Assembly (NCBI RefSeq): GCF_014195535.1
Contig: NZ_JACIBY010000002.1
Location: 62,001 to 126,000 of the forward strand
Length of the DNA: 64,000 nt
Reading direction: 5' to 3'
Source: Runella defluvii
GTDB lineage: Bacteria; Bacteroidota; Bacteroidia; Cytophagales; Spirosomataceae
In this document: positions 27,559 through 45,670 of the stretch, in pieces
Position numbering within the stretch: position 1 is the first letter of the stretch
Layout of the letters: every line of letters begins with the position of its first letter
Notes under the pieces: generated by a model
Databases searched by the model: none
What the model was told of the DNA's origin: nothing
Seen by the model: only the letters and a program-made list of their open reading frames with translations
Made by a program: the position numbers and the translations under genes

Positions 27559-30258
27559 ATGAAGCCATTTTTTGGGTCTAAGTCATCATTGGCACTGGCT
27601 GCTTGCTTGCTCCTAACAGCGATGTCGCCCTCAGTGATGGGGCAAACCTCCACTCCCCCTGAGGAAAACCGCTTTACCAAAAACATTCTACTTGAAAAGC
27701 TCGACGAACCCACTGAGCTTGTAGTACTGGAAGACCAGCGCGTGCTCTTAACCGAGCGCAAAGGGAAAGTAAAATTGTTCAACCCCAAAAAACCGAATTC
27801 GTACAAAGTAGTAGCCAACCTACCTGTGTACATTCTGCAAGAATACGGCTTGATGGGTATCAACCTAGACCCCAATTTTAAAGAGAACAAATGGGTCTAT
27901 CTGTACTATTCGCCCGTATCGACCGAAGCAGATACTTCGCAGCGATTGGTTCGTATGAAGTACGATACCGAAAAAGATACGCTCCTGCCTAGCACCGAAC
28001 AGGTCTTGTTGCGCGTGCCCGTCAAACGTACCGACTGCTGCCACACGGGTGGGTCGATTGCGTGGGACAAACAAGGAAATTTGTACCTTTCAACGGGAGA
28101 TGACATCAATCCGTTTGGCAACGAAGGCTACGGCGCTCTCGATGGTCGCCCTGGTCGCGCCAATTGGGACGGCCGCTCAACGTCTTCTAACACCAACGAC
28201 TTGCGCGGTAAAGTACTTCGTATCAAGCCTCGTCCTGAAGGTGGGTATGACATTCCAGCGGGTAACTTATTCCCCGTAGGTACAGCCAAAACTCGTCCAG
28301 AGATTTATACCATGGGAACACGTAACCCGTACCGTATTTCGGTGGACCAACGCACCAATTATTTGTACTGGGGTGACGTAGGCCCTGACGCAGGCAACGA
28401 CAGCCCAACACGTGGGTCGCGAGGCTATGATGAAGTAAACCAAGCCCGTAAAGCAGGGTATTTTGGCTATCCTCTTTTTATTGGCGACAACCGTCCTTAT
28501 AATCGCTATGACATGGGCACCAAAGTATCGGGTGAACGTTTTGACCCGCTCAAGCCCATCAACGATTCTCCCCACAACACAGGTATCACCGAATTGCCTC
28601 CTGCACAAAAAGCGTTCATTTTTTACCCCTACGCCGACTCACCTGAGTTTGGCCCAATCGTAGGAAAAGGAGGTCGTAATGCCATGGCAGGGCCTGTTTA
28701 CTACTACGACGATTATCCAGAAACCAACGTAAAATTCCCTCGTCACTACGACGGCAAGCTGTTTGCTTACGAATGGATTCGCGACTGGATTCACCCCGTG
28801 ACCATGACCAAAGACGGCGACTTTGTGCAAATGGAAGAGTTTATGCCTAACACCAAGTTTAGCCACCCTATCGACATGCAGTTTGCGGTGGACGGCTCGT
28901 TGTACGTACTCGAATACGGTAACACTTGGTTTGCCCAAAACGACGACTCGCGCTTGTCGCGCATCACCTACAACGCGGGCAATCGTAAGCCGTTGGCCGT
29001 GGCAAGTGTGCAGAAAAAAGCGGGTGCAGCGCCCATGAAAGCCGAGTTTTCGTCGAAAGGAACGGTGGATTACGACGGTGATGCCCTCAAATACGAGTGG
29101 ACGTTTGGAAAAGGTTTGCCCAAAAGTACCGTGGCTAACCCAACATTTACCTACACAAAACCAGGCATTTACACCGCTACTCTCAAAGTAACCGATAGCA
29201 AAGGCAACGCACGTAGCAGCAGCGTAGAGGTAAAAGTAGGAAACGAACCTCCTAAAGTAGAAGTGGCATTGGCAGGAAACAAATCGTTTTACTGGGAAAA
29301 CAAACCCGTTGCTTACGAAGTGAAAGTTTCGGACAAAGAAGACGGCAGTTTGGCCAATCAAAAAATCAATCCAGAGGATGTCACCGTAACGGTGGATTAC
29401 TTGGAAGGCTTTGACAAAACGATTTTGGCACAAGGCCACCAAGCCAATTTGGGCGTAGCGACGGGCAAACGCTTGATGGATTTGTCGGATTGTAAAGCCT
29501 GCCACGACGTAGTGAAGAAGTCGATTGGCCCTGCTTACCGCGACGTAGCCAAAAAATACAAAGGTGCGCGCGATATTGAAAGCCGTTTAGCCGATAAAAT
29601 CATCAACGGTGGTGGTGGCGTATGGGGCGAACAAGCCATGAGCGCCCACCCTCAAATCAAGAAAGAAGAAGCCAAAGAAATCGTGAAGTACATCATGTCG
29701 TTGGGCAACGAAAAAGGCCCCGACAAAAAACCTGTGAAAGGCGAGTACGTAACAGCGGCTAAACAAAAAGAAGGTTCGTATATTTTCAGGGCCAGCTACA
29801 CCGACAAAGGAAATCCTGTCGTTGGTCCTCAGACTTCTACAAGCACGGTGGCCTTGCGTCCTGCCAAATTGAAAGCAACTTGGAACGACGAAGCCAAAGA
29901 CGCGACGACGGTTGAGCTTCCGACAAAATCGGAAGTATTGGCTCCAGTGAAAAATGGTAGCTACGCACTTTACAAAGACGTGGATTTGACCGATGTCAGC
30001 AGTTTATCGTGCATGGTGTATGCCACTCCTGACCGCACCGTAGGCGGCACCATCGAAGTACGTTTGGATAGTCCAACGGGGGCGTTGATTGGTCAGACCG
30101 AAGTATCGAACAGTCAAATGGGGGCTGTAACGTTATCGCTCCGCAAGCCTGACAACAAAGTACACAATTTATATTTGGTTTTCACGACCACCAAATCGGT
30201 GCCCGAAGGCAATGGTTTGTTTGGCGTAGAATGGCTCCAGTTTAACTCGGGGCAATAG
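27559..30258 (+). CDS. Secreted PQQ-dependent sugar dehydrogenase-PKD-cytochrome c-CBM fusion
   Basis: 899 residues with a signal peptide (1-28). Domains in order: a six-bladed glucose/sorbosone dehydrogenase propeller (about 35-480; motif HTGGSIAWDKQGNLYLSTGD), a PKD domain (about 488-570), a class I cytochrome c (about 630-725) with heme site C645-K-A-C648-H649 and probable axial M694, then a beta-sandwich of the CBM6 type (about 775-899). Electrons would pass from the sugar site to the heme inside one protein. Exported; substrate unknown. Followed by a strong terminator at 30288. Confidence 0.88.
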   Translation: MKPFFGSKSSLALAACLLLTAMSPSVMGQTSTPPEENRFTKNILLEKLDEPTELVVLEDQRVLLTERKGKVKLFNPKKPNSYKVVANLPVYILQEYGLMGINLDPNFKENKWVYLYYSPVSTEADTSQRLVRMKYDTEKDTLLPSTEQVLLRVPVKRTDCCHTGGSIAWDKQGNLYLSTGDDINPFGNEGYGALDGRPGRANWDGRSTSSNTNDLRGKVLRIKPRPEGGYDIPAGNLFPVGTAKTRPEIYTMGTRNPYRISVDQRTNYLYWGDVGPDAGNDSPTRGSRGYDEVNQARKAGYFGYPLFIGDNRPYNRYDMGTKVSGERFDPLKPINDSPHNTGITELPPAQKAFIFYPYADSPEFGPIVGKGGRNAMAGPVYYYDDYPETNVKFPRHYDGKLFAYEWIRDWIHPVTMTKDGDFVQMEEFMPNTKFSHPIDMQFAVDGSLYVLEYGNTWFAQNDDSRLSRITYNAGNRKPLAVASVQKKAGAAPMKAEFSSKGTVDYDGDALKYEWTFGKGLPKSTVANPTFTYTKPGIYTATLKVTDSKGNARSSSVEVKVGNEPPKVEVALAGNKSFYWENKPVAYEVKVSDKEDGSLANQKINPEDVTVTVDYLEGFDKTILAQGHQANLGVATGKRLMDLSDCKACHDVVKKSIGPAYRDVAKKYKGARDIESRLADKIINGGGGVWGEQAMSAHPQIKKEEAKEIVKYIMSLGNEKGPDKKPVKGEYVTAAKQKEGSYIFRASYTDKGNPVVGPQTSTSTVALRPAKLKATWNDEAKDATTVELPTKSEVLAPVKNGSYALYKDVDLTDVSSLSCMVYATPDRTVGGTIEVRLDSPTGALIGQTEVSNSQMGAVTLSLRKPDNKVHNLYLVFTTTKSVPEGNGLFGVEWLQFNSGQ

Positions 30259-30381: not shown

Positions 30382-30522
30382 ATCCCTGGGCTAAAATCGT
30401 CGTTGATGGCACGCGAATGAGACGGATTGAACGGATAACTTGTGCTTTAGCACTTAAAGTATTCGTAGTTAAAACCTACGTTTTTCTACATTTGTAAGTA
30501 TTCTCTCGAAAAAAGTCATTTT
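30382..30522 (+). promoter_or_regulatory. Conserved promoter module of BspA-like gene 1
   Basis: About 140 bp nearly identical before all four BspA-like genes. It carries a -7 box TACATTTG (30487-30494), two small palindromes (GTGC-TTTA-GCAC at 30442-30453 and CGTAG / CTACG at 30464-30480) and direct ACGGAT strings (near 30422-30436). The -7 box lies 29 bp before the ATG. The palindromes sit where a repressor or activator could act. Confidence 0.75.
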
Positions 30523-32820
30523 ATGCCTAAAACTTTCCTCCAACTTATCGTTATTTCTTTCCTTGCTTGGGGAACCATGTGGCACCCTGCCCAAGCCCAA
30601 AACAGCCCCTTCATTACCCGTTGGGATTTATCAAAAACAGGCGGCACTGCCACGACCTTGACATTTGGCGTAGCCACCGCTGGCACCGTAAGTTATACTT
30701 GGCAGCAGGTGGGTGGCGCAGCCTCAGGAAGCGGGACGTTTAGCGGAAGTGCGCTCACCATCACAAACTTACCTGCCAATGCCATCATCGACCTAAGCAT
30801 TAATCCCATTAATTTTCAAAGGATTAATATCAATTACGGAACAGACCGCCAACGCCTCATGGAAATAAAGCAATGGGGTACAGTGGCTTGGACTAGTATG
30901 CAGAGGGCTTTTTACGGCTGCTCAAACATGACACTCACGGCTACTGACACCCCCAACTTTGCTGCTGTTACGGACATGAGTTATATGTTTGCTGTTTGTT
31001 GTGCTTTTAACCAATCAGTGAGTAATTTTAATACCGTAGCAGTTACTGATATGAGTGGGATGTTTGCTTTTTGTAATTCATTTAACCAATCCGTGAGCAA
31101 TTTTAATACCTCTGCCGTTACCAATATGAGTGCTATGTTTTTAGGTTGCAGTGCCTTTAACCAATCCGTGAGCAATTTTAATACCTCTGCCGTTACCAAT
31201 ATGAATAGTATGTTTTCAGATTGTAGTTTATTTAACCAGTCCGTGAGCAATTTTAATACTGAAAAGGTGACCAATATGAGCTTTATGTTTGCTGTTTGTC
31301 GTGCCTTCAACCAATCAGTACGTAACTTTAATACTGAAAAGGTGACCAATATGAGTGGTATGTTTGAAGGTTGTAGCTCTTTTAATCAATCGGTGAGCAG
31401 TTTTAACACTGAAAAGGTTACTCATATGAATAATATGTTTTGGGGGTGTAATGTCTTTAACCAATCGGTGAGCAATTTTAATACCGCTGCCGTCACCGAT
31501 ATGCGTGGTATGTTTTATAATTGTCATGCCTTTAACCAATCAGTGAGCAATTTTAATACTGAAAAGGTTACTCTTATGAATAATATGTTTTGGGGGTGTA
31601 ATACCTTTAACCAATCAGTGAGCAATTTTAATACTGAAAAGGTGACTGATATGAACTATATGTTTTTGGGGTGTATAACCTTTAACCAATCAGTAAGCAA
31701 TTTTAATACTGCTGCTGTCACAGATATGAGTGGGATGTTTATGGGTTGTAGTTTATTTAACCGATCAGTGAGTAATTTTAATACTGAAATGGTTACTAAT
31801 ATGAGTTATATGTTTTTCGGTTGTAGTAACTTTAACCAATCATTAAGTAATTTTAATACTACCGCGGTTACTAATATGAGTTATATGTTTTATCGTTGTC
31901 CTGCCTTTAACCAATCCGTGAGCAATTTTAACACTGAAAAGGTTACTGATATGAGCTATATGTTTGCTGATTGTAGTGCCTTTAACCAATCAGTAAGCAA
32001 TTTTAATACCTTAGCTGTTACCAATATTAGATTTATGTTTTCTGAATGTAGTGCCTTTAACCAATCAGTAAGCAATTTTAATACTGAAAAGGTGACTGAT
32101 ATGAGCTATATGTTTTCTGGTTGTAGTGCCTTTAACCAAAGTTTAGCTTCTTGGGGTAGTCAACTCAATGCGAATGTGGACCTCGGTGGCTTTTTGAATA
32201 ACTGCGGCATGAGTGGGGCCAACTACGATGCTACGCTCAAAGCTTTTGCGGCTGGCTCGGTAACAGATAGAAATATGGGCGCTTCAGATCTTAAGTACTG
32301 CGATGCAGAAACGGCCCGTAAGCTCCTTACTACCCCCGTCGCCTCGGGGGGCAAGGGCTGGAGCATCTGGGGAGATTCTAAAAACTGCACTGTCCCAGCG
32401 GTCATTGCTATTTCACCCGAGCGGCCCGCTATTTGTCCAGGAACGTCCATCACCCTGGCAGCGAGTGGATGCGCGGGTACGGTAACTTGGTTGGGTGGCG
32501 CAAGTCCACAAACGGGGGCGTCAATCACCGTAAGTCCTGCGCTTACTACTTCTTATTCAGCCAATTGCAGCACGGGAGGTACAGAAACCGTTACGGTAAA
32601 GGTAGCCACCAATACCCTAGCAGTAGGTTACAACGTGGTCACCGAAAAGGAGCGATTCAAGGCATCCACGACCCTTACTTCCAATAAAAAAGTGGGCAAT
32701 GTCAGTTTTACGCCCAATGCCAACGTCGTCTATGAAGCAGGCAACTCCATCACCTTACTCCCTGGCTTTTCTGCCGAAAAAGCGAGTACGTTTCTGGCCG
32801 AAATAAAAGGCTGTCAATAG
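30523..32820 (+). CDS. Secreted DUF285/BspA-like repeat protein, paralogue 1
   Basis: 765 residues. Signal peptide 1-25 (ending PAQAQ), a unique N-terminal region to about 145, then 15 complete tandem repeats of 25 residues with consensus FNQSVSNFNT-xxVT-xMS-x-MF-xx-C-x-x. The DUF285 (BspA-like leucine-rich-type) family forms curved beta solenoids that bind host or extracellular ligands. Each repeat has a Cys at position 23. After the solenoid come a cap (to about 620) and two beta domains, the last resembling a three-coathanger stack (GNVSFTPNANVVYEAG to the end), used for surface anchoring. No T9SS CHU_C end. First of four tandem paralogues. Confidence 0.92.
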   Translation: MPKTFLQLIVISFLAWGTMWHPAQAQNSPFITRWDLSKTGGTATTLTFGVATAGTVSYTWQQVGGAASGSGTFSGSALTITNLPANAIIDLSINPINFQRININYGTDRQRLMEIKQWGTVAWTSMQRAFYGCSNMTLTATDTPNFAAVTDMSYMFAVCCAFNQSVSNFNTVAVTDMSGMFAFCNSFNQSVSNFNTSAVTNMSAMFLGCSAFNQSVSNFNTSAVTNMNSMFSDCSLFNQSVSNFNTEKVTNMSFMFAVCRAFNQSVRNFNTEKVTNMSGMFEGCSSFNQSVSSFNTEKVTHMNNMFWGCNVFNQSVSNFNTAAVTDMRGMFYNCHAFNQSVSNFNTEKVTLMNNMFWGCNTFNQSVSNFNTEKVTDMNYMFLGCITFNQSVSNFNTAAVTDMSGMFMGCSLFNRSVSNFNTEMVTNMSYMFFGCSNFNQSLSNFNTTAVTNMSYMFYRCPAFNQSVSNFNTEKVTDMSYMFADCSAFNQSVSNFNTLAVTNIRFMFSECSAFNQSVSNFNTEKVTDMSYMFSGCSAFNQSLASWGSQLNANVDLGGFLNNCGMSGANYDATLKAFAAGSVTDRNMGASDLKYCDAETARKLLTTPVASGGKGWSIWGDSKNCTVPAVIAISPERPAICPGTSITLAASGCAGTVTWLGGASPQTGASITVSPALTTSYSANCSTGGTETVTVKVATNTLAVGYNVVTEKERFKASTTLTSNKKVGNVSFTPNANVVYEAGNSITLLPGFSAEKASTFLAEIKGCQ

Positions 32821-32885
32821 AGCAGTTATTTCTCCTCCTATTTTTCATTTAACTTCTCTGGCGCCCTAATTACTGTATCCGAGTC

Positions 32886-33026
32886 ATCCGTAGGCTAAAA
32901 TCGTCGTTGATGGCACGCGGATGAGACGGATTGAACGGATAACTTGTGCTTTAGCACTTAAAGTATTCGTAGTTAAAACCTACGTTTTTCTACATTTGTA
33001 AGTATTCTCTCGAAAAAAGTCATTTT
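32886..33026 (+). promoter_or_regulatory. Conserved promoter module of BspA-like gene 2
   Basis: Second copy of the module, including TACATTTG (32991-32998) and both palindromes. The preceding 65 bp after gene 1 are also shared with the spacer behind gene 2, so gene plus spacer form the duplicated unit. Confidence 0.75.
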
Positions 33027-35174
33027 ATGCCTAAAACTTTCCTCCAACTTATTGTTATTTCCCTACTTGCTTGGGGAACCATGTGGCACCCTGCCCAAGC
33101 CCAAAGCAGCCCCTTTATCACCCGTTGGGATTTATCAAAAACAGGCTGGACAGCTACGGAATTAAGTTTTGCCGTAGAAACAGCTGGTACGGTAAGCTAT
33201 ACTTGGCAGCAAGTGGGTGGCGCAGACTCTGGCAGTGGTACGTTTAGCGGAAAGACGCTCACCATCAAAAACTTACCTGCCAATGCCATCATCGACCTAA
33301 GCATTGACCCCGTTAATTTTCAAAGAATTATTATCAATTACGGAACAGACCGCCAACGCCTCATGGAAGTAAAGCAATGGGGGACAGTGGCTTGGATCAG
33401 TATGCAGAATGCTTTTTGGGGCTGCTCGAACATGACACTCACGGCTACTGATACCCCCAACTTTGCTGCTGTTACGGACATGAGTTATATGTTTGCTGAT
33501 TGTAGATCTTTTAACCAATCAGTGAGCAATTTTAACACCGCCACTGTGACTAATATGAGTGGAATGTTTGGGGAGTGCAGTGCCTTTAACCAATCAGTGA
33601 GCAGTTTTAATACTGAGAAAGTTACCAATATGAGCTATATGTTTTCTGGTTGTCGTGCCTTTAACCAATCAATCAGCAATTTTAATACCGCCGCTGTAAC
33701 TAATATGAGTTCGATGTTTTCTGGTTGTCGTGCCTTTAACCAATCAGTGAGCAATTTTAATACCGTTACTGTGACTACTATGAGCGGAATGTTCAGTAAT
33801 TGTAGCTCATTTAACCAATCGGTCAGCAATTTTAATACCGCCGCTGTGACTACTATGAGCGGAATGTTCAGTAATTGTAGCTCATTTAACCAATCGGTCA
33901 GCAATTTTAATACTCAAAAGGTTACTGATTTTTGGTCGATGTTTTCTGGTTGTAGCTCATTTAACCAATCGGTCAGCAATTTTAATACTCAAAAGGCTAC
34001 GCGTATGAGCAGTATGTTTTGGGAGTGTAGGAACTTCAATCAACCAGTAAGTAATTTTAATACCACCGCTGTGACTACTATGAGCGGGATGTTTCTTGGT
34101 TGTAGCACTTTTAACCAATCGGTCAGTAATTTTGATACCGAAAAAGTTACTGATATGTGGGGGATGTTTGATGGTTGTTATGCCTTTAACCAATCGGTCA
34201 GCAATTTTAATACCGCTGCTGTGACTAATATGAGTTCGATGTTCTCTGATTGTAGCTCATTTAACCAATCAGTGAGCAATTTTAACACTAAAAAGGCTAC
34301 TGATATGAGTTATATGTTTTTTGATTGTACTGTTTTTAACCAATCAGTAAGCAATTTTAATACTGAAAAAGTTACTGATATGAATTATATGTTTTTTGGT
34401 TGTAGCACTTTTAATCAACCAATTAGCAATTTTAATACCGCTTCCATCAAGAGTATGAATTATATATTTGCTTATTGCCGTTCTTTCAACCAAAGTTTAG
34501 CTTCTTGGGGTAGTCAACTTAATGCTAATGTGAACCTCATTGGCTTTTTGGATAACTGCGGCATGAGTGTGGCCAACTACGATGCTACGCTCACCGCTTT
34601 TGCCGCAGGCTCGGTAACGGGTAGAAATATGGGTGCTTCAAATATTAACTACTGCGGTGCTGAAACGGCCCGTAAGCTCCTTACTACCCCCGTCGCCTCG
34701 GGGGGCAAGGGCTGGAGCATCTGGGGAGATTCTAAAAACTGCACTGTCCCAGCGGTGATTGCCATTTCACCCGAGCGGCCCGCTATTTGTCCAGGAACGT
34801 CCATCACCCTGGCAGCGAGTGGATGCGCGGGCACGGTAACTTGGATGGGTGGCCCAAGTCCACAAACGGGGGCGTCAATCACCGTAAGCCCTGCACTTAC
34901 TACTTCCTACTCAGCTAATTGCAGCACGGGAGGTACAAAAACCGTTACGGTGAAAGTAGCCACCAATACCCTAGCAGTAGGTTACAACGTGGTCACTGAA
35001 AAGGAGCGATTCAAGGCATCCACCACCCTTACTTCCAATAAAAAGGTGGGCAATGTCAGTTTTACGCCCAATGCCAACGTGGCCTATGAAGCAGGCAACT
35101 CCATCACCTTGCTCCCTGGCTTTTCTGCCGAAAAAACAAGTACGTTTCTGGCCGAAATAAAAGGCTGTCAATAG
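33027..35174 (+). CDS. Secreted DUF285/BspA-like repeat protein, paralogue 2
   Basis: 715 residues. Same plan as paralogue 1 with 13 complete 25-residue repeats. Signal peptide and C-terminal domains (from PAVIAISPERPAICPGTSI on) are almost identical to paralogues 1 and 4, while the repeats differ in number and in the variable VT-xMS positions. Some repeats are near-perfect tandem copies at DNA level (33765-33914), a sign of recent repeat gain. Complete gene with its own promoter module. Confidence 0.92.
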   Translation: MPKTFLQLIVISLLAWGTMWHPAQAQSSPFITRWDLSKTGWTATELSFAVETAGTVSYTWQQVGGADSGSGTFSGKTLTIKNLPANAIIDLSIDPVNFQRIIINYGTDRQRLMEVKQWGTVAWISMQNAFWGCSNMTLTATDTPNFAAVTDMSYMFADCRSFNQSVSNFNTATVTNMSGMFGECSAFNQSVSSFNTEKVTNMSYMFSGCRAFNQSISNFNTAAVTNMSSMFSGCRAFNQSVSNFNTVTVTTMSGMFSNCSSFNQSVSNFNTAAVTTMSGMFSNCSSFNQSVSNFNTQKVTDFWSMFSGCSSFNQSVSNFNTQKATRMSSMFWECRNFNQPVSNFNTTAVTTMSGMFLGCSTFNQSVSNFDTEKVTDMWGMFDGCYAFNQSVSNFNTAAVTNMSSMFSDCSSFNQSVSNFNTKKATDMSYMFFDCTVFNQSVSNFNTEKVTDMNYMFFGCSTFNQPISNFNTASIKSMNYIFAYCRSFNQSLASWGSQLNANVNLIGFLDNCGMSVANYDATLTAFAAGSVTGRNMGASNINYCGAETARKLLTTPVASGGKGWSIWGDSKNCTVPAVIAISPERPAICPGTSITLAASGCAGTVTWMGGPSPQTGASITVSPALTTSYSANCSTGGTKTVTVKVATNTLAVGYNVVTEKERFKASTTLTSNKKVGNVSFTPNANVAYEAGNSITLLPGFSAEKTSTFLAEIKGCQ

Positions 35175-35239
35175 AGCAGTTATTTCTCCTCCTATTTTTC
35201 ATTTAACTTCTCTGGCGCCCTAATTACTGTATCCGAGTC

Positions 35240-35380
35240 ATCCGTAGGCTAAAATCGTCGTTGATGGCACGCGGATGAGACGGATTGAACGGATAACTTG
35301 TGCTTTAGCACTTAAAGCATTCGTAGTTAAAACCTACGTTTTTCTACATTTGTAAGTATTCTCTCGAAAAAAGCCGTTTT
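35240..35380 (+). promoter_or_regulatory. Conserved promoter module of BspA-like gene 3
   Basis: Third copy, with TACATTTG at 35345-35352. Nearly identical to module 2 including the flanking sequence. Confidence 0.75.
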
Positions 35381-36880
35381 ATGCCTAAAACTTTCCTCCA
35401 ACTTCTCGTTATTTCTTTCCTTGCTTGGGGAACCATACTACACCCTGCCCAAGCCCAAAACAGCCCCTTCATTACCCGTTGGGATTTATCAAAAACAGGC
35501 GGCACTGCCACGACCTTAACATTTGGCGTAGCCACCGCTGGTACCGTAAGTTATACTTGGCAGCAGGTGGGTGGAGCAGCTTCTGGCAGTGGTACATTTA
35601 GCGGGAGTACGCTCACCATCATAAACTTACCTGCCAATGCCATCATCGACCTAAGCATTGATCCCGTTAATTTCCAAAGGATTATCATCAATAACAGAAC
35701 AGACCGCCAACGCCTCATGGAAGTAAAACAATGGGGCACGGTGGCTTGGACTAGTATGCAGAGCGCCTTTCAGGGCTGCTATAACATGAAACTCACAACT
35801 ACTGATGTACCCAACTTTACAGCCGTTACCAATATGGGTTATATGTTTAGCGATTGTTATGTCTTTAACCAATCGGTAAGTCATTTCAATACCGCAGCCG
35901 TTACTAATATGGAGGGAATGTTTTCTGGCTGTCGTGCCTTTAATCAATCGGTCAGCAATTTTAATACCGCAGCCGTTACTAATATGTACGGTATGTTTTC
36001 TGGTTGTACAGTTTTTAACCAATCGGTAAGCAGTTTTAATACTGCCGCTGTTACTAAGATGAGTTTTATGTTTGTTGGTTGCAGCTCCTTTAATCAATCA
36101 GTAAGCAATTTTAACACCTCAGCCGTTACTGATATGTACGGTATGTTTAGCGGTTGTAGTAAATTTAACCAATCTGTGAGTAATTTTAATACCTCAGCCG
36201 TTACCAGTATACGCTCTATGTTTTCTGGCTGTAGTGCCTTTAACCAATCGGTAAGTAGTTTTAACACCGCCTCTGTTACCAATATGAGTTATATGTTCTT
36301 TGGTTGTAGTACCTTTAACCAATCGGTTAGTAATTTTAATACTACAGCCGTTACTGAAATGAGTGATATGTTTGCTAATTGTAGTACCTTTAACCAATCG
36401 GTTAGTAATTTTAACACCTCAGCCGTTACTAATATGCATGGTATGTTTAGCGGTTGTAGTAAATTTAACCAATCTGTGAGTAATTTTAATACTGCCGCTG
36501 TTACTTTCATGAAGTCAATGTTTTTTGGTTGTAGTGCTTTTAATCAATCGGTAAGTAATTTTAATGTCGCCGCCGTTACCGATATGGGTGGAATGTTTAA
36601 TGGTTGCAGTGCCTTTAATCAAAGCTTGGCTACTTGGAGCAGCAAACTCAATGCCTATGTTGACTTAACTAATTTTTTAGACAATTGCGGCATGAGCGTG
36701 GCCAACTACGATGCCACTCTCAAGGCTTTTGCGGCAGCCTCGGCAAAAGGTATAAGTATGGGGGCTACAAATCTTAAATATTGTGATGCAGAAGCCGCCC
36801 GCACACTCCTTACCAAACCTACCGCTTCTGGTGGTAAGGGTTGGACTATTTTGGGAGATACAAAAAATTGCTCTCGTTAA
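35381..36880 (+). CDS. Secreted DUF285/BspA-like repeat protein, paralogue 3, C-terminally truncated
   Basis: 499 residues. Signal peptide, N-terminal region and 10 complete repeats are like the others, but the frame stops at KNCSR just where the two C-terminal beta domains should begin. About 315 bp are deleted relative to paralogue 1, and the remaining end of the anchoring domain is left out of frame downstream (36894-37014). The repeats of this copy are mainly of the AAVT/SAVT type and lack EKVT, unlike its neighbours. It may be released instead of anchored, or be decaying. Confidence 0.88.
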   Translation: MPKTFLQLLVISFLAWGTILHPAQAQNSPFITRWDLSKTGGTATTLTFGVATAGTVSYTWQQVGGAASGSGTFSGSTLTIINLPANAIIDLSIDPVNFQRIIINNRTDRQRLMEVKQWGTVAWTSMQSAFQGCYNMKLTTTDVPNFTAVTNMGYMFSDCYVFNQSVSHFNTAAVTNMEGMFSGCRAFNQSVSNFNTAAVTNMYGMFSGCTVFNQSVSSFNTAAVTKMSFMFVGCSSFNQSVSNFNTSAVTDMYGMFSGCSKFNQSVSNFNTSAVTSIRSMFSGCSAFNQSVSSFNTASVTNMSYMFFGCSTFNQSVSNFNTTAVTEMSDMFANCSTFNQSVSNFNTSAVTNMHGMFSGCSKFNQSVSNFNTAAVTFMKSMFFGCSAFNQSVSNFNVAAVTDMGGMFNGCSAFNQSLATWSSKLNAYVDLTNFLDNCGMSVANYDATLKAFAAASAKGISMGATNLKYCDAEAARTLLTKPTASGGKGWTILGDTKNCSR

Positions 36881-36893
36881 AGTTTCATTATAC

Positions 36894-37014
36894 CTTCAAT
36901 TTTACGCCCAATGCCAACGTGGTCTATGAAGCAGGTAGCTCCATCCCCTTGCTCCCTGGCTTTTCTGCCGAAAAAGCGAGTACGTTTCTAGCGGAGATAA
37001 AAGGCTGTCAATAA
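36894..37014 (+). pseudogene. Out-of-frame remnant of the three-coathanger-like domain
   Basis: Matches the last 40 codons of paralogues 1, 2 and 4 (FTPNANVVYEAG-S-SI-LLPGFSAEKASTFLAEIKGCQ and the stop at 37012-37014) in frame 1, while gene 3 runs in frame 2. It marks the deletion that truncated gene 3. Confidence 0.8.
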
Positions 37015-37046
37015 AGTAGTTACCCCTCCTCATATTTTTCATTTAA

Positions 37047-37279
37047 GTAATAAAGCAAAAGTTTTAGAGTAATTCAAAGTAGCCTCGGTAGAGGCGCAAC
37101 ATTTGTAGTAACAGCAGGTGATTTTTTAATTTTTGCTTCGGAGAAGCATAACTTGGTGCTTTGTTATGCTTCTCCGAAGCAAAAGGGTTTTATATATGGC
37201 TCTCTTTACTACTACTACAAAGGTTACGCTTCTACGAAGCAGTGTAAACTCTAATACTCTAAAATTTATGCTCAACTAC
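37047..37279. mobile_element. MITE-like element, 233 bp, flanked by TTAA
   Basis: Terminal inverted repeats of about 28 bp (37047-37074 and 37252-37279) agree at 21 of 28 positions, including TTTTAGAGTA / TACTCTAAAA. TTAA occurs immediately outside both ends (37043-37046 and 37280-37283). The spacers behind genes 1 and 2 keep the uninterrupted site TTTTTCATTTAACTTCTCTG (TTAA at 32849-32852 and 35203-35206). Inside is a perfect 22-bp inverted repeat (37131-37152 / 37163-37184). No gene, so it is non-autonomous. Confidence 0.8.
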
Positions 37280-37315
37280 TTAACTTCTCTGACGCCTATT
37301 ACTGCATCCGATTCA

Positions 37316-37454
37316 TCCCTGGGCTAAAATCGTCGTTGATGACACGCGGATGAGACGGATTGAACGGATAACTTGTGCTTTAGCACTTAAAGTATTCGTA
37401 TTTAAAACCTACGTTTTTCTACATTTGTAAATATTCTCTCGAAAAAAACGTTTT
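37316..37454 (+). promoter_or_regulatory. Conserved promoter module of BspA-like gene 4
   Basis: Fourth copy, with TACATTTG (37419-37426). Its upstream edge (CCCTGGGCTAAAATCGTCG) resembles module 1, whereas modules 2 and 3 share CCGTAGGCTAAAATCGTCG. Confidence 0.75.
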
Positions 37455-39752
37455 ATGCCCAAAATCGTACTCCATTTTTTGACTATTTTTTTACTTGCTT
37501 GGGGAACTATGTGGCACTCTGCCCAAGCCCAAAGCAGCCCCTTTATTACCCGTTGGGATTTATCGAAAACAGGCGGCGCTGCCACGACCTTGACATTTGG
37601 CGTAGCCACCGCTGGTACCGTAAGTTATATTTGGCAGCAGGTAGGTGGAGCAGCCTCTGGCAGTGGAACGTTTAGCGGAAGTACGCTCATCATCACAAAC
37701 TTACCTGCCAATGCCATCATCGACCTAAGCATTGACCCCGTTAATTTTCAAAGGATTATCATCAACAATGGAACAGACCGCCAACGACTCATGGAAATAA
37801 AGCAATGGGGTACAGTGGCTTGGACCAGTATGCAGAACGCTTTTTACGGCTGCTCAAACATGACACTCACGGCCACTGATACCCCCAACTTTTCTGCTGT
37901 TACGGACATGAGTTATATGTTTGCTGATTGTAGATCTTTTAACCAATCAGTGAGCAGTTTTAATACTGAAAAGGTTACCAATATGAGCTATATGTTTTTC
38001 GGGTGTAGTTCCTTTAACCAATCGATGGGCAATTTTAATACCGCTACCGTTACCAATATGAGTTATATGTTTGCTGGTTGTTATATATTTAACCAATCGA
38101 TAAGCAATTTTAATACTGCTGCCGTTACCAATATGAGTGCTATGTTTTATGATTGCCGTAATTTTAACCAATCGATAAGCTATTTTAATACCGCCGCCGT
38201 TACCAATATGAGTATTATGTTTGCTTTTTGTCGCTCCTTTAACCAGCCAATAAGCAATTTTAATACTACTGCCGTTACTGATATGAGCGGTATGTTTTAT
38301 GATTGTCGTGCCTTTAACCAATCGGTGGACAATTTTAATACTGCTACCGTTACTGATATGAGTTCAATGTTTGGGCGCTGCCTTGCCTTTAACCAATCGG
38401 TGAGCAACTTTAATACCGCTGCCGTTACCGATATGTATGGAATGTTTACATTGTGTCATGCCTTTAATCAATCGGTTAGCAATTTTAATACAGCCGCCGT
38501 TACTGATATGAGTTATATGTTTAATGAATGTTATGTCTTTAACCAGTCAGTGACCAATTTTAATACAGCTGCCGTTACTGATATGAGTTATATGTTTGGG
38601 GAGTGCCTTGTCTTTAACCAATCTGTGAGCAATTTCAATACCGCTGCCGTTACTAATATGGATGGAATGTTTACTTTGTGTCATAGCTTTAACCAACCAG
38701 TTAGCAATTTTAATACCGAAAAGGTTACCAGTATGAATAGCATGTTTAATGAGTGTTATGTCTTTAACCAATCAGTGAGCAATTTCAATACCGCTGCCGT
38801 TACAAATATGCGTTCTATGTTTGCTAATTGTCGTGCATTTAATCAATCGGTAAGTAATTTTAATACCGAAAAGGTTATCACTATGTGGGAAATGTTTTCT
38901 AGTTGTATTGTCTTTAACCAATCAGTGAGCAATTTTAATACCGCTGCCGTTACAAGTATGCGTTCTATGTTCTACAATTGCCGTGATTTTAACCAATCAG
39001 TGAACAATTTTAACACTGCTTCCGCGACAAATTTAATTAGTATGTTTTATGCTTGTAGTTCCTTTAACCAAAATTTAGCTTCTTGGGGTAACCATCTTAA
39101 CCCCAATGTGGATCTCGTTAATTTTTTGGGTAACTGCGGCATGAGTGTGGCCAACTACGATGCGACGCTCACCGCTTTTGCGGCTGGCTCGGTAACGGGT
39201 AGAAATATGGGTGCTTCAAATCTTACGTACTGCAATGCAGAAACGGCCCGCACGCTCCTTACTACGCCCGTCGCCTCGGGAGGTAAGGGCTGGAGCATCT
39301 CGGGAGATTCTAAAAACTGCACTGTCCCAGCGGTGATTGCCATTTCACCCGAGCGGCCTGCTATTTGTCCAGGAACGTCCATTACCCTGGCAGCGAGTGG
39401 ATGCGCGGGCACGATAACTTGGCGGGGTGGAGCAAGTCCACAAACGGGGGCTTCAATCACCGTAAGTCCTACGCTTACTACTTCTTATTCCGCCAATTGC
39501 AGCACAGGCGGCACGGAAACTGTCACGGTGAAAGTAGCCACCAATACCCTAGCAGTAGGTTACAACGTGGTCACCGAAAAGGAGCGATTCAAAGCATCCA
39601 CGACCCTTACTTCCAATAAAAAAGTGGGCAACGTCAATTTTACGCCCAACGCCAACGTCGTCTATGAAGCAGGTAACTCCATCACCTTGCTTCCTGGCTT
39701 TTCTGCCGAAAAAACAAGTACGTTTCTGGCCGAAATAAAAGGCTGTCAATAG
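37455..39752 (+). CDS. Secreted DUF285/BspA-like repeat protein, paralogue 4
   Basis: 765 residues. Signal peptide, about 15 complete 25-residue repeats, the helical/solenoid cap and the full pair of C-terminal beta domains, almost identical to those of paralogues 1 and 2. Repeats are mostly the AAVT type with a few EKVT units. The gene ends 23 bp before the ferredoxin gene on the opposite strand. The same-length ORF as paralogue 1 is coincidental: repeat order differs. Confidence 0.92.
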   Translation: MPKIVLHFLTIFLLAWGTMWHSAQAQSSPFITRWDLSKTGGAATTLTFGVATAGTVSYIWQQVGGAASGSGTFSGSTLIITNLPANAIIDLSIDPVNFQRIIINNGTDRQRLMEIKQWGTVAWTSMQNAFYGCSNMTLTATDTPNFSAVTDMSYMFADCRSFNQSVSSFNTEKVTNMSYMFFGCSSFNQSMGNFNTATVTNMSYMFAGCYIFNQSISNFNTAAVTNMSAMFYDCRNFNQSISYFNTAAVTNMSIMFAFCRSFNQPISNFNTTAVTDMSGMFYDCRAFNQSVDNFNTATVTDMSSMFGRCLAFNQSVSNFNTAAVTDMYGMFTLCHAFNQSVSNFNTAAVTDMSYMFNECYVFNQSVTNFNTAAVTDMSYMFGECLVFNQSVSNFNTAAVTNMDGMFTLCHSFNQPVSNFNTEKVTSMNSMFNECYVFNQSVSNFNTAAVTNMRSMFANCRAFNQSVSNFNTEKVITMWEMFSSCIVFNQSVSNFNTAAVTSMRSMFYNCRDFNQSVNNFNTASATNLISMFYACSSFNQNLASWGNHLNPNVDLVNFLGNCGMSVANYDATLTAFAAGSVTGRNMGASNLTYCNAETARTLLTTPVASGGKGWSISGDSKNCTVPAVIAISPERPAICPGTSITLAASGCAGTITWRGGASPQTGASITVSPTLTTSYSANCSTGGTETVTVKVATNTLAVGYNVVTEKERFKASTTLTSNKKVGNVNFTPNANVVYEAGNSITLLPGFSAEKTSTFLAEIKGCQ

Positions 39753-39775: not shown

Positions 39776-40096
39776 TTATTCCTCCTCCCCCAGTAGTTGA
39801 AACGTCGTTCCTTGCAGGGTTTCGTCCACCCGTAGTTGGCAGGCGAGTCGACTGCACGAGGTAGCAGAGGGCAAAGTGTCCAAAATATCCAGTTCGGCGT
39901 CGCTTACCGATGGCAAGTTTTCTCCCCCGTCCAAGACACCCACGTGGCAAGTGGCACAGAGCGCCATTCCTCCGCAAGTGGCCAAAATCAAATACTCGGA
40001 AGCTTTCAAAACCTCCATTAAATTGAGTCCTATTCCTTCGGGAATTTCTAGCGTTTGGCGCTCACCCGTGCGGTCTTCTATTGTGAATTGTATCAT
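39776..40096 (-). CDS. 2Fe-2S ferredoxin (adrenodoxin type)
   Basis: 106 residues from the ATG at 40096 (MIQFTIED). The cluster ligands are C-x5-C-x2-C (CGGMALCATC) and a fourth Cys in SCSRLACQL, the plant/adrenodoxin-type 2Fe-2S spacing. The ILATCGG start and the C-terminal RLACQLRVD fit ISC/biosynthetic ferredoxins. It starts 16 bp after the stop of the ferredoxin reductase gene, so the two form a redox pair. Confidence 0.85.
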   Translation of the reverse strand: MIQFTIEDRTGERQTLEIPEGIGLNLMEVLKASEYLILATCGGMALCATCHVGVLDGGENLPSVSDAELDILDTLPSATSCSRLACQLRVDETLQGTTFQLLGEEE

Positions 40097-40112
40097 GTCG
40101 TTTGCAGCGTTA

Positions 40113-41117
40113 TTAAAAAGCATTTACTCCGTTTACCGTCGTGTATTTAAAACTGAGGTGCTGATTGGGATACACGTATTTGAAGGCGCTTTGGCACATC
40201 ATGGCGGCCTCGTGGAAACCCGTTAAAATCAGTTTGAGTTTGCCAGGATAGGTGTTAATGTCTCCGATGGCATAAATGCGCTCGACGTTGGTCGAATAAT
40301 CGAGCGTATTTACTTCAATGGCTGATTTACTGATGTTTAGCCCCCAATCGGCGATGGGGCCGAGTTTCGGACTTAAACCAAACAGCGGAATAAAAAAGTC
40401 GGACGACAGTTGGGTGGTACTTTTGTCTTTGGCCGCCACAACTACCTCTTTCAAATGACCATTGCCGTTTAAGCCAACTACATTTGACTGCAACAACAGG
40501 TTAATACGACCGTGTTGCGCCAACTCAAACACTTTCTCTGCCGAATCGGGTGCGCCACGAAACGAATCGCTGCGGTGAATCAAGGTAACGTTTTTGGCCA
40601 CGTCGGCCAAGTAGGCCGTCCAGTCGAGGGCAGAGTCGCCACCGCCTGCAATCACCACGTTTTTGTCCCTAAATTTCTCTGGGTTTTTGACCATGTAAGC
40701 CACTCCTTTTCCTTCAAACCGTTCCAAATCAGGAATTTCTGGTTTACGTGGCTCAAAGCATCCTAACCCACCCGCAATGACCATCACTTGGCAATGCACC
40801 TCGGTGTCGTCAGACGTACGTACGATCAACGAACCGTCGGGTTGGCGTTCTACTTTTTCCACGCGCTCGCCCAGCGTAAACGTTGGTTTGAAGGGAGCAA
40901 TTTGCGCCATGAGGTTATCCACCAACTCTTGCGCCTTGATGGTGGGGTAGCCTGGAATATCGTAAATAGGTTTTTGGGGATAAATTTCTGACAACTGCCC
41001 CCCTACCTGCGGCAAGGCATCAATCAAATGGCAACGCATTTTGAGAAGTCCTGCTTCAAAAACGCTAAACAGCCCCACGGGCCCTGCTCCTACAATACAA
41101 ATATCTGTTGTTATCAT
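40113..41117 (-). CDS. Ferredoxin-NADP+ reductase (thioredoxin reductase-like)
   Basis: 334 residues from the ATG at 41117. FAD site GAGPVGLFSVFEAGLL, second nucleotide site VVIAGGGDSALDW and the closing IYAIGDINTYPGKLKLILTGFHEA belong to the YumC/TrxR-like FNR subfamily. The redox-active CxxC of thioredoxin reductase is absent, so it is an FNR. It reduces the ferredoxin encoded immediately downstream. The longer frame to 41189 has no better start. Confidence 0.87.
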   Translation of the reverse strand: MITTDICIVGAGPVGLFSVFEAGLLKMRCHLIDALPQVGGQLSEIYPQKPIYDIPGYPTIKAQELVDNLMAQIAPFKPTFTLGERVEKVERQPDGSLIVRTSDDTEVHCQVMVIAGGLGCFEPRKPEIPDLERFEGKGVAYMVKNPEKFRDKNVVIAGGGDSALDWTAYLADVAKNVTLIHRSDSFRGAPDSAEKVFELAQHGRINLLLQSNVVGLNGNGHLKEVVVAAKDKSTTQLSSDFFIPLFGLSPKLGPIADWGLNISKSAIEVNTLDYSTNVERIYAIGDINTYPGKLKLILTGFHEAAMMCQSAFKYVYPNQHLSFKYTTVNGVNAF

Positions 41118-44169: not shown

Positions 44170-45069
44170 TTAGAAAAGTACAAGTTGGTTTGCAAATTTT
44201 TGGTTACAAACTGTATTACTGTCTACGTAAATAGACATTTTTGTTCTTTGACATTTTGGTGTTTTTGAGAGAGACTCTTCGTACTCAATGGGTGACATCA
44301 TGTTTAGCTCCCAGTGGGGTCTATCCTGGTTATAAAGTTTAACATCTCTATCTAAGTGCTTGATGAGTTGTTGTAAAGTTTGAATATTTCGATGCGATAA
44401 ATATTCATTTTTTATAATTCCATTCAGGCGTTCACTATGGGAGTTTTCATAAACTGTATTAGCCATACTAATTTGAATGTTATTATCTTGGAGTAATTGC
44501 ACATATTCACTGAAAACATACTGAGTACCTTTGTCCGAATGGTGAATAAGCTGATTTAGCATTTGCCCTTTTCGAGTTTTAAGGGCCAGTTTTAATGCTC
44601 CTACATTTGCCAATGCAACCAATAAGGCTGAGGCATAATGGCCAATGATTTTTCTGGAATAAACATCCATAATTAGTACGATGTAAAAGAACCTGTCTAC
44701 TACCCAAAAGTAAGTAATGTCACTTACCCATAGTTGGTTAATATCATCGATTAAAAGCCCTTCTAACAAGTTTCTATACCGATTGCTTTTGGTTGAATAG
44801 GTCGTTCTACGATAGTTTTTAGCTTTTTCTATGCCTAAATTAGCCGACATAGCCAGAGTAATAAATCGGTCTCGACCCATGTTAACGGGCTTAACTTTGT
44901 GGTAGAGCTTTTTCAACCCTAACACAGGGTGTTTAATTCGCAATTGAGCAATTTGATTCAAAATTTCTTGTTCGTTGATAGTTGCCATCAACTCCTTAGT
45001 TTGATGTTGGGCATGTGCTTGTTTACTTGCTTTCTCTAACTCGTAGAGAGTTTTCATCGTTACTTTCAA
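44170..45069 (-). CDS. IS3-family transposase OrfB (DDE catalytic domain)
   Basis: 299 residues (TTG at 45069, in-frame ATG at 45057). N-terminal HTH_21-like region (IAQLRIKHPVLGLKKLYHKV), then the rve integrase core with D in WVSDITYFWV, D in IHHSDKGTQY and E in NSHSERLNGIIKNEY, the DDE triad. Normally made as a fusion with OrfA by -1 frameshifting in the upstream A8 run. Frame is intact. Confidence 0.92.
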   Translation of the reverse strand: MKVTMKTLYELEKASKQAHAQHQTKELMATINEQEILNQIAQLRIKHPVLGLKKLYHKVKPVNMGRDRFITLAMSANLGIEKAKNYRRTTYSTKSNRYRNLLEGLLIDDINQLWVSDITYFWVVDRFFYIVLIMDVYSRKIIGHYASALLVALANVGALKLALKTRKGQMLNQLIHHSDKGTQYVFSEYVQLLQDNNIQISMANTVYENSHSERLNGIIKNEYLSHRNIQTLQQLIKHLDRDVKLYNQDRPHWELNMMSPIEYEESLSKTPKCQRTKMSIYVDSNTVCNQKFANQLVLF

Positions 45070-45473
45070 GTCTTTTCTATGAGATTTGAAGTAATCGAAA
45101 GTGGGGTATTTGTACTTTTTTTTAGGTCAATTTTTAAGTCCGAAGAAGCTATTTCTATTAGCTTCTCTAAGTAGTCGATTTTTAATTGTTTTTGCCCAAT
45201 AATGCGCTCTAACTCCGCATTTCGTTCTAATAAAGCCTTCGTTTTTAGTGCTTCTGATTCCATTTCGATGACTAATCTTGTCGGTTTTTGGTAATGTTTA
45301 GAATACTGTTGTCGCCATCGGCATACACTTACAGCAGATACTTCGTATTGTCTGACAATATCAGCAATAGTAAGTAGGTTTGCATCTAATTGAGCAATGA
45401 TTTGTTTCTTAAAGTCAACACTGAAATGTCGAACAACCTTTGATAAATTCTTAGAATTGTGCAATTTGTCCAT
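45066..45473 (-). CDS. IS3-family transposase OrfA (DNA-binding)
   Basis: 135 residues: a helix-turn-helix of the HTH_8/InsE type (QLDANLLTIADIVRQYEVSAVSVCRWRQQY) then a coiled-coil-like helix with a leucine spacing (LLERNAELERIIGQKQLKIDYLEKLIE) for dimerisation. Overlaps OrfB by 4 bp in another frame. Recognises the element's terminal repeats. Confidence 0.9.
   Translation of the reverse strand: MDKLHNSKNLSKVVRHFSVDFKKQIIAQLDANLLTIADIVRQYEVSAVSVCRWRQQYSKHYQKPTRLVIEMESEALKTKALLERNAELERIIGQKQLKIDYLEKLIEIASSDLKIDLKKSTNTPLSITSNLIEKT
45116..45123 (-). promoter_or_regulatory. Programmed -1 frameshift site of the IS3 element
   Basis: Eight A in a row on the coding (minus) strand. The 0 frame reads CTA AAA AAA AGT; a -1 slip on the Lys codons enters the OrfB frame (AAG TAC AAA TAC ...), which stays open into OrfB. 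IS150-type elements use such A-runs to make the OrfAB transposase. Confidence 0.75.
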
Positions 45474-45567
45474 AGTTAATAGTTGATTTTGTGGTCAACC
45501 TATGCTAGGACAAGACAGTCCGTTAACTGTTATCCGTTAATTGTTATTCGCTGACATCAACCTCGTT

Positions 45568-45655
45568 AACAGATAACCAGTACACGGATAACAGATAACC
45601 AGTACACGGATAACAGATAACCAGTACACGGATAACGGATAACCAATACACAGAT
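45568..45655. repeat. Four tandem 22-bp repeats before the DUF2911 gene
   Basis: Units at 45568-45589, 45590-45611 and 45612-45633 are identical; the fourth (45634-45655) differs at 3 positions. Unit core: GATAACCAGTACACGG. The array ends 15 bp before the DUF2911 ATG and is part of the GTTATCnGTTAA palindrome family (related strings at 45521-45570). Confidence 0.85.
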
Positions 45656-45670
45656 AACCAATTCACAATT

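Follow-up and report, generated by a model that had tools for sequence, protein, structure and literature searches.

Within the window, the 64,000-nucleotide stretch of the Runella defluvii genome analyzed here, an array of four same-strand genes is flanked by a GSDH/PKD/cytochrome-c/CBM6 gene (27559-30258) and a 2Fe-2S ferredoxin gene on the minus strand (39776-40123), the latter followed by a pyridine-nucleotide-disulphide oxidoreductase gene (Table 1). We refer to array genes 1-4 as A1-A4, to the copies of a related Runella genome (G010) as B1-B3, and to the copy of Runella sp. CRIBMP (G011) as F1. The genome is a 50-contig draft, and the assembly of the array may therefore contain errors. 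All four encoded proteins match DUF285 (PF03382) in a Pfam scan at 375-710 bits against a cut-off of 25, which excludes a chance match, and all four also match the NCBIfam PARCEL repeat TIGR02167. These matches agree with a preliminary description of the locus, made from the sequence, which had likened the repeats to the palindromic amphipathic repeat elements of DUF285 proteins; its count of four DUF285 genes with 15, 13, 10 and 15 repeats of 25 residues also holds, as four plus-strand open reading frames (ORFs) with 53 canonical units (pattern VTxMxxMFxxCxxFNQSVSNFNTxx); each gene has one further unit, which is fused to the region that follows it. The same description called the proteins BspA-like, and this is indeed the name that public annotation gives to proteins of this sort; however, the Pfam scan at E 0.001 gave DUF285 alone, with no match in any of the four proteins to LRR_5 (PF13306), the family of BspA.

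Table 1. Features of the four-gene DUF285 array and its spacers, in window positions
Position	Strand	Feature
30383..30522	+	Upstream, promoter-like block of gene 1, common to the array; TACATTTG at 30487-30494
30523..32820	+	Gene 1: signal-like peptide, N-domain, 15 repeats (30967-32091), post-repeat region, GCX_COOH tail (GCQ end)
32887..33026	+	Upstream, promoter-like block of gene 2, common to the array; TACATTTG at 32991-32998
33027..35174	+	Gene 2: 13 repeats (33471-34445), GCX_COOH tail; repeats collinear with B2 of G010
35241..35380	+	Upstream, promoter-like block of gene 3, common to the array; TACATTTG at 35345-35352
35381..36880	+	Gene 3: no tail, 10 repeats (35825-36574), stop after NCSR
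36904..37014	+	GCX_COOH tail remnant downstream of the gene 3 stop, in another frame; identical junction behind B1 (G010)
37043..37283		MITE-like dispersed element between genes 3 and 4; perfect 22-bp hairpin arms 37131-37184
37316..37454	+	Upstream, promoter-like block of gene 4, common to the array; TACATTTG at 37420-37427
37455..39752	+	Gene 4: divergent signal-like peptide, 15 repeats (37899-39023), GCX_COOH tail

Each protein comprises, in order, a signal-like peptide, a domain of ~122 residues and the repeats, to which genes 1, 2 and 4 add a post-repeat region and a tail. Read by eye, the signal-like peptide has an N-terminal hydrophobic stretch and a cleavage-like site, AQA, then Gln; a Bacteroidetes "Q-rule" for Gln after signal peptide cleavage is set out in the available text of PMC5837995. 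A profile scan matched the GCX_COOH tail in genes 1, 2 and 4, and in the genome as a whole it gave 23 matches above cut-off, the remnant behind gene 3 counted among them. At the C-termini of the four proteins, no known type IX secretion (T9SS) CTD family was found, GCX_COOH in genes 1, 2 and 4 being the only match. Our search of the genome for the type IX translocon covered SprA, which is part of that translocon and is encoded (SprA_N positions 1-510 of 510, 461.7 bits). The four proteins are probably secreted and surface attached, with the GCX_COOH tail as a putative sorting or attachment domain.

Gene 3 is a tail-less form: it ends without the C-terminal GCX_COOH domain, and the out-of-frame piece behind its stop matches the last 36-41 residues of the tail. 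Because B1 shares the junction of stop and remnant, this form is probably older than the divergence of the two species. F1 stops at a similar CSH with no remnant behind it. The tail-less form could have arisen either by deletion or by crossover with a long-form gene. The MITE-like element downstream of it has eight other near-full-length matches in the genome, at 75-93% identity. Beyond the array, 4.4 kb downstream, lies a transposase-like pair (44170-45473), presumably IS3-like, with rve domains in a 299-aa ORF, and a tandem repeat of a 22-bp unit in 4.2 copies occupies 45567-45658.

The DNA of the repeats is AT-rich, with a GC content of 0.356 compared with 0.407 expected from their own amino acids and the codon usage of 13 ORFs of the window; this does not apply to the two ends of gene 1, which have 0.503 and 0.523. 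Asn codons in the Runella units examined are column specific, mostly AAC at column 15 and mostly AAT at columns 3, 20 and 22, unlike in the 13 window ORFs, which use AAC and AAT about equally. For DNA palindromes in the repeats the signal was weak: complementarity of the best 10-nt arms is 53%, compared with 49% (sd 0.9) for 12 synonymous shuffles, and no inverted repeat of at least 16 bp lies inside the repeats. This test set arm complementarity against synonymous shuffles, where the PARCEL study used MEME, according to the text available of PMC2996958.

Other DUF285 matches of the genome (C1:9160-12735, C16, C30 and C27) lie mostly in very long frames of 2401-4711 aa, from which the compact array genes differ; exceptions are one C30 match in a 326-aa frame and the C11 match in 802 aa. 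When three of these loci were compared with the array (those on C11 and C27 being left out), the repeat pattern was present in three units of L001, one of L013 and none of L003. Used as a query, gene 1 matches 114 phage and 81 plasmid records at E 1e-5; in the record of Sphingomonas phage PAU (JQ362498, 79929-81002), the repeats of gp103 are 51% identical to those of gene 1, with matches at ten places.

Comparison of the four genes separates similar ends from divergent centers. A 140-bp block precedes all four at 96-100% identity (gene 4: 132/140 bases), as the near-identical promoters of the preliminary description would have it; over the whole upstream segment, paralogs are 93-98% identical. 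Outside the array, matches to the block in this genome are confined to pieces of 23-45 bp. The TACATTTG motif within each block fits the Bacteroidetes -7 box, TAnnTTTG. The spacers between genes 1 and 2 and between genes 2 and 3 are identical at 203/206 bp. Signal peptides and C-terminal domains had likewise been called near-identical, which is accurate only in part: a signal-like peptide is present in all four genes, but at the DNA level paralog identity is 76-95%, with gene 4 at only 76-81% to the others, and the C-terminal parts of genes 1, 2 and 4 are alike (91-94%) rather than near-identical, whereas gene 3 (77-78%) lacks the domain. N-domains are 85-92% identical among paralogs. In 75-nt steps, paralog identity is 0.75-0.99 across the signal peptide and N-domain (N-domain 0.76-0.99), 0.68-0.91 in unit 1, and 0.63-0.84 in the units after it; downstream of the repeats in genes 1, 2 and 4 it is 0.80-0.99. 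Values of 0.33 upstream of gene 4 result from a one-base register shift.

The centers had been described as shuffled, and here the data point the other way. Mean repeat-unit identity is 0.754 (125 units, ten genes), and among 1655 between-gene unit pairs within a genome the fraction reaching 0.92 is 0.0006. Left aside in this comparison were the fused final units, a normal final unit in B1, and two broken units, one interrupted (B2) and one with a frame break (F1). No unit is at least 93% identical between different array genes of this genome, and because the four genes have no near-identical unit in common, we reject cassette shuffling among them. Unit 1 of genes 2 and 4, which adjoins the common N-domain, is 0.91 identical. 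Within genes, local duplications are found (A2 units 5/6, B1 units 9/10, B3 units 2/8/11), and the gain and loss of repeats agrees with the variable repeat number noted at the outset.

Relatives of the N-domain at E <= 0.001 are encoded in 27/99 genomes, our own included. Among the 13 Runella genomes, all of which have the GSDH neighbor gene, relatives at least 86% identical to the query were found in G002, G003, G010, G011 and our own; of eight regions obtained together, three (L099, L100 and L101) were examined. We compared the chromosomal site in G003, G006, G007, G008, G010 and our own genome. In G006 and G008 it is not comparable because another gene follows the GSDH neighbor. Between the GSDH/PKD and ferredoxin genes there is no copy in G007, where 64 bp separate the flanking genes, one copy in G003, three in G010 and four here. 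B2 is split inside repeat unit 8 by an IS-like insert with two overlapping ORFs (L075, between 9204 and 10622). G002 and G011 each have a single copy that is not beside the GSDH gene; the G002 copy has a different N-terminal frame ahead of the common domain, and F1 has a frame break within its repeats. At this one chromosomal site, copy number differs between related species, which fits birth and death.

Several tests bear on recombination in the ends. Against a null of recombination-free simulations (GTR+G on the maximum-likelihood tree), site incompatibility is in excess in the C-terminal part, where the observed level was reached by 0/200 simulations for the A/B rows and 4/200 for all rows, and in the SP+N segment (6/200); it is weaker in the N-domain (10/200 for all rows, 12/200 for A/B rows). 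PHI is significant in SP+N (p=0.001) and not in the N-domain (0.57; A/B rows 0.59) or the C-terminal part (0.14; A/B rows 0.10). Segment trees have mostly low support, with A1 and A2 grouping at 88% in the C-terminal part. Synonymous divergence (dS) of the tail sorts neither by genome nor by ortholog: it is 0.16 for A1-A2, 0.15 for B2-B3, 0.17 for A1-B2 and 0.165 for A4-B2, and 0.22 for A2-B2, 0.25 for A1-A4 and 0.27 for A2-A4. Our reading is that the ends carry old, overlapping conversion that has left little ortholog signal, which is not proof of single events. The proposal that shared ends let the genes recombine therefore stands over evolutionary time, on the copy numbers of 4, 3, 1 and 0, the site incompatibility and the identity profiles, with PHI significant in one of three segments.

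Gene 2 offers the closest view of a center. The repeat order of A2 and B2 is collinear (z=10), with one extra unit on each side; collinearity of A3 and B1 is weaker (z=5.7, negligible score 0.09). The flanking genes of the two species differ at a dS of 0.31, similar to the A2-B2 N-domain (0.32), and the C-terminal parts at 0.22-0.24, compared with 0.10 for all 12 aligned repeat units and 0.038 for eight aligned units from 6 to 14, where synonymous change is about tenfold below that of the gene ends. For codon counts we used eight of the 12 aligned units (2, 6, 7 and 9-13), setting aside units 3 and 4, in which duplication blurs the pairing, unit 1, which is less alike and adjoins the N-domain, and the fused unit 14. 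These eight units hold 3 synonymous differences in 200 codons, against 50 in the 347 codons of the N-domain and C-terminal part (p=1e-7). We infer that the center of gene 2 passed between two Runella species after their split.

Amino-acid changes in this center are concentrated. All ten in the eight units sit at variable positions. Of the 12 changes in the 72 codons at those positions, 10 are nonsynonymous and 2 synonymous; the 128 codons at conserved positions contain a single change, which is synonymous, and the 347 codons of the N-domain and C-terminal part contain 26 nonsynonymous and 50 synonymous changes (Fisher p=0.0018 in a test that comprises 12 changes from one ortholog pair, with positions and units picked after the changes were known). 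With 11 units counted, the variable positions have 18 nonsynonymous and 4 synonymous changes in 99 codons and the conserved positions 2 and 7 in 176. The nine variable positions are the nine highest-entropy columns of the 53 units (at least 1.62; others at most 0.71).

A plainer account of these figures is that old tandem duplications are drifting apart under ordinary purifying selection, having undergone neither conversion nor exchange nor diversifying selection, and that the low dS of the A2-B2 repeats reflects synonymous constraint. Age alone could explain the divergent centers, PHI is not significant in two of the three segments, and because some columns hold near-fixed codons (for example, AAC at Asn15 and AAT at Asn20/22), constraint could lower repeat dS. 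Constraint alone is nevertheless hard to square with five freely varying columns that barely changed between A2 and B2, at 1/40 codons, although 55% of paralog comparisons differ there (p=0.007 to 0.015). Together with the site incompatibility in excess of simulation and the ratio of nonsynonymous to synonymous change at variable positions, this makes plain drift unlikely in our judgment. The restriction of changes in the eight units to variable positions would also suit a diversity-generating retroelement or another targeted mutator. We disfavor such a source as highly improbable: the changes are not adenine-specific, the genome's sole RVT_1 match lies on a different contig (C18), and the two other DUF285 loci where units were found hold no close donor unit.

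The preliminary description saw in the array a possible surface-variation locus, in which the four genes recombine within a population and the displayed repeats change fast. The layout has much that such antigenic or phase variation would use, with tandem copies on the same strand, common ends and nearly identical first spacers to supply homology for crossing-over, and a copy number that varies between species. Its contents fit poorly: the four genes have no near-identical units in common, and the repeat order of gene 2 is also that of its ortholog in another species, at a flanking dS of ~0.31. An identical repeat order in all isolates over many generations, with no sign of gene conversion, had been named as the outcome that would speak against the proposal, and between species gene 2 (A2-B2) comes close to it. 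All four genes keep the promoter-like motif, start and signal-like peptide, leaving no obvious silent donors, and since each carries the motif, an expression-site switch is not supported. The sole inverted repeat of at least 16 bp sits within the MITE-like element, on which ground we rejected an invertible promoter, and the four flanking genes scanned (GSDH, GNAT, ferredoxin and oxidoreductase; opposite-strand ORFs within the array were left out) do not encode recombinases. With one genome compared per species, we consider an active variation locus quite unlikely, more so than plain drift.

A four-sequence model of gene 2 was poor (pLDDT 63.6), and a fold search with it was uninformative; a PDB sequence search with gene 2 returned nothing at E 0.01. 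A model of seven repeats was good (pLDDT 89.5) and consists mostly of loops, to which each unit adds a short strand at or within VSNFNT. Its best 50 PDB matches listed are mostly leucine-rich repeat (LRR) proteins, including Bacteroides LRR proteins and variable lymphocyte receptors, with no significant fold match among the matches listed (best E-value 0.74). Predicted viral proteins, with "BspA family" and similar names, match the model better, three of them at E <= 0.001.

By its sequence, the locus is of the already known DUF285/PARCEL kind. The available text of PMC2996958 describes PARCELs with variable hydrophilic positions and a patchy distribution, and proposes that untargeted copies are recombination reservoirs. 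Like the proteins in that account, those of the array have a 25-residue unit in which hydrophobic positions are conserved and hydrophilic ones vary; most units are unique, and occurrence among close relatives is patchy. The signal-like peptides, as read by eye, may correspond to the membrane-targeting signals of PARCEL proteins. The array differs from what PMC2996958 describes in having only weak DNA dyad symmetry by our test, in forming four tandem genes with near-identical upstream blocks and three GCX_COOH tails, and in a site that, depending on the species, is empty or holds one, three or four copies. Mycoplasma agalactiae and M. feriruminatoris have multi-copy bspA/DUF285 families whose copy number varies between strains, by the accounts of PMC12103780 and PMC10634449; as here, there are pseudogene copies, and some are on mobile elements. 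The mycoplasma proteins of these accounts are mostly lipoproteins of wall-less animal parasites, whereas ours, from the Cytophagales, have a Sec-type signal-like peptide and a C-terminal tail. For Prevotella intermedia, likewise of the Bacteroidota, PMC11969387 describes DUF285 proteins with a predicted curved repeat fold and lists them as predicted cargo of type IX secretion, for which they have a C-terminal sorting domain; the tail here is GCX_COOH, matching no known T9SS CTD family, and the P. intermedia model is given without strands, unlike our seven-repeat model. In how they work, variable lymphocyte receptors offer a comparison, with constant ends and variable LRR modules, although the fold matches are not significant; the array has no sequence relationship to them, and the comparison does not extend to somatic assembly.

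Weighing this evidence, we think it probable that the array is a tandem family that varies between species and evolves by birth and death, and that its LRR-like repeat proteins are secreted and attached to the surface. The upstream block, N-domain and tail would be kept alike by gene conversion or unequal crossing-over while the centers diverge, with single units gained and lost. The variable positions may form a putative binding face for outside ligands, such as glycans, phage, or the surfaces of prey or neighbors. Because such a face is what we envisage, the family would represent several co-expressed binding specificities and not a switch. A bolder version, possible but doubtful, is a modular receptor family in free-living bacteria, in which homogenized ends move whole LRR-like centers between paralogs, and even between species, followed by positive selection at exposed positions; if true, it would be a slow, population-level analogue of variable lymphocyte receptors.

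In a limited literature search, we found no account of DUF285 arrays in Runella, and we do not claim their absence from print. New here are the empty-site comparison, the similar ends around an orthologous center, and the concentrated amino-acid changes. DUF285 proteins are widespread, and the literature cited here assigns them no function. With an empty site and one, three and four copies in close relatives, the locus is a clean comparative system for this family, and the center of gene 2 between differing ends, together with a short list of fast-changing positions, provides the basis for a binding test.
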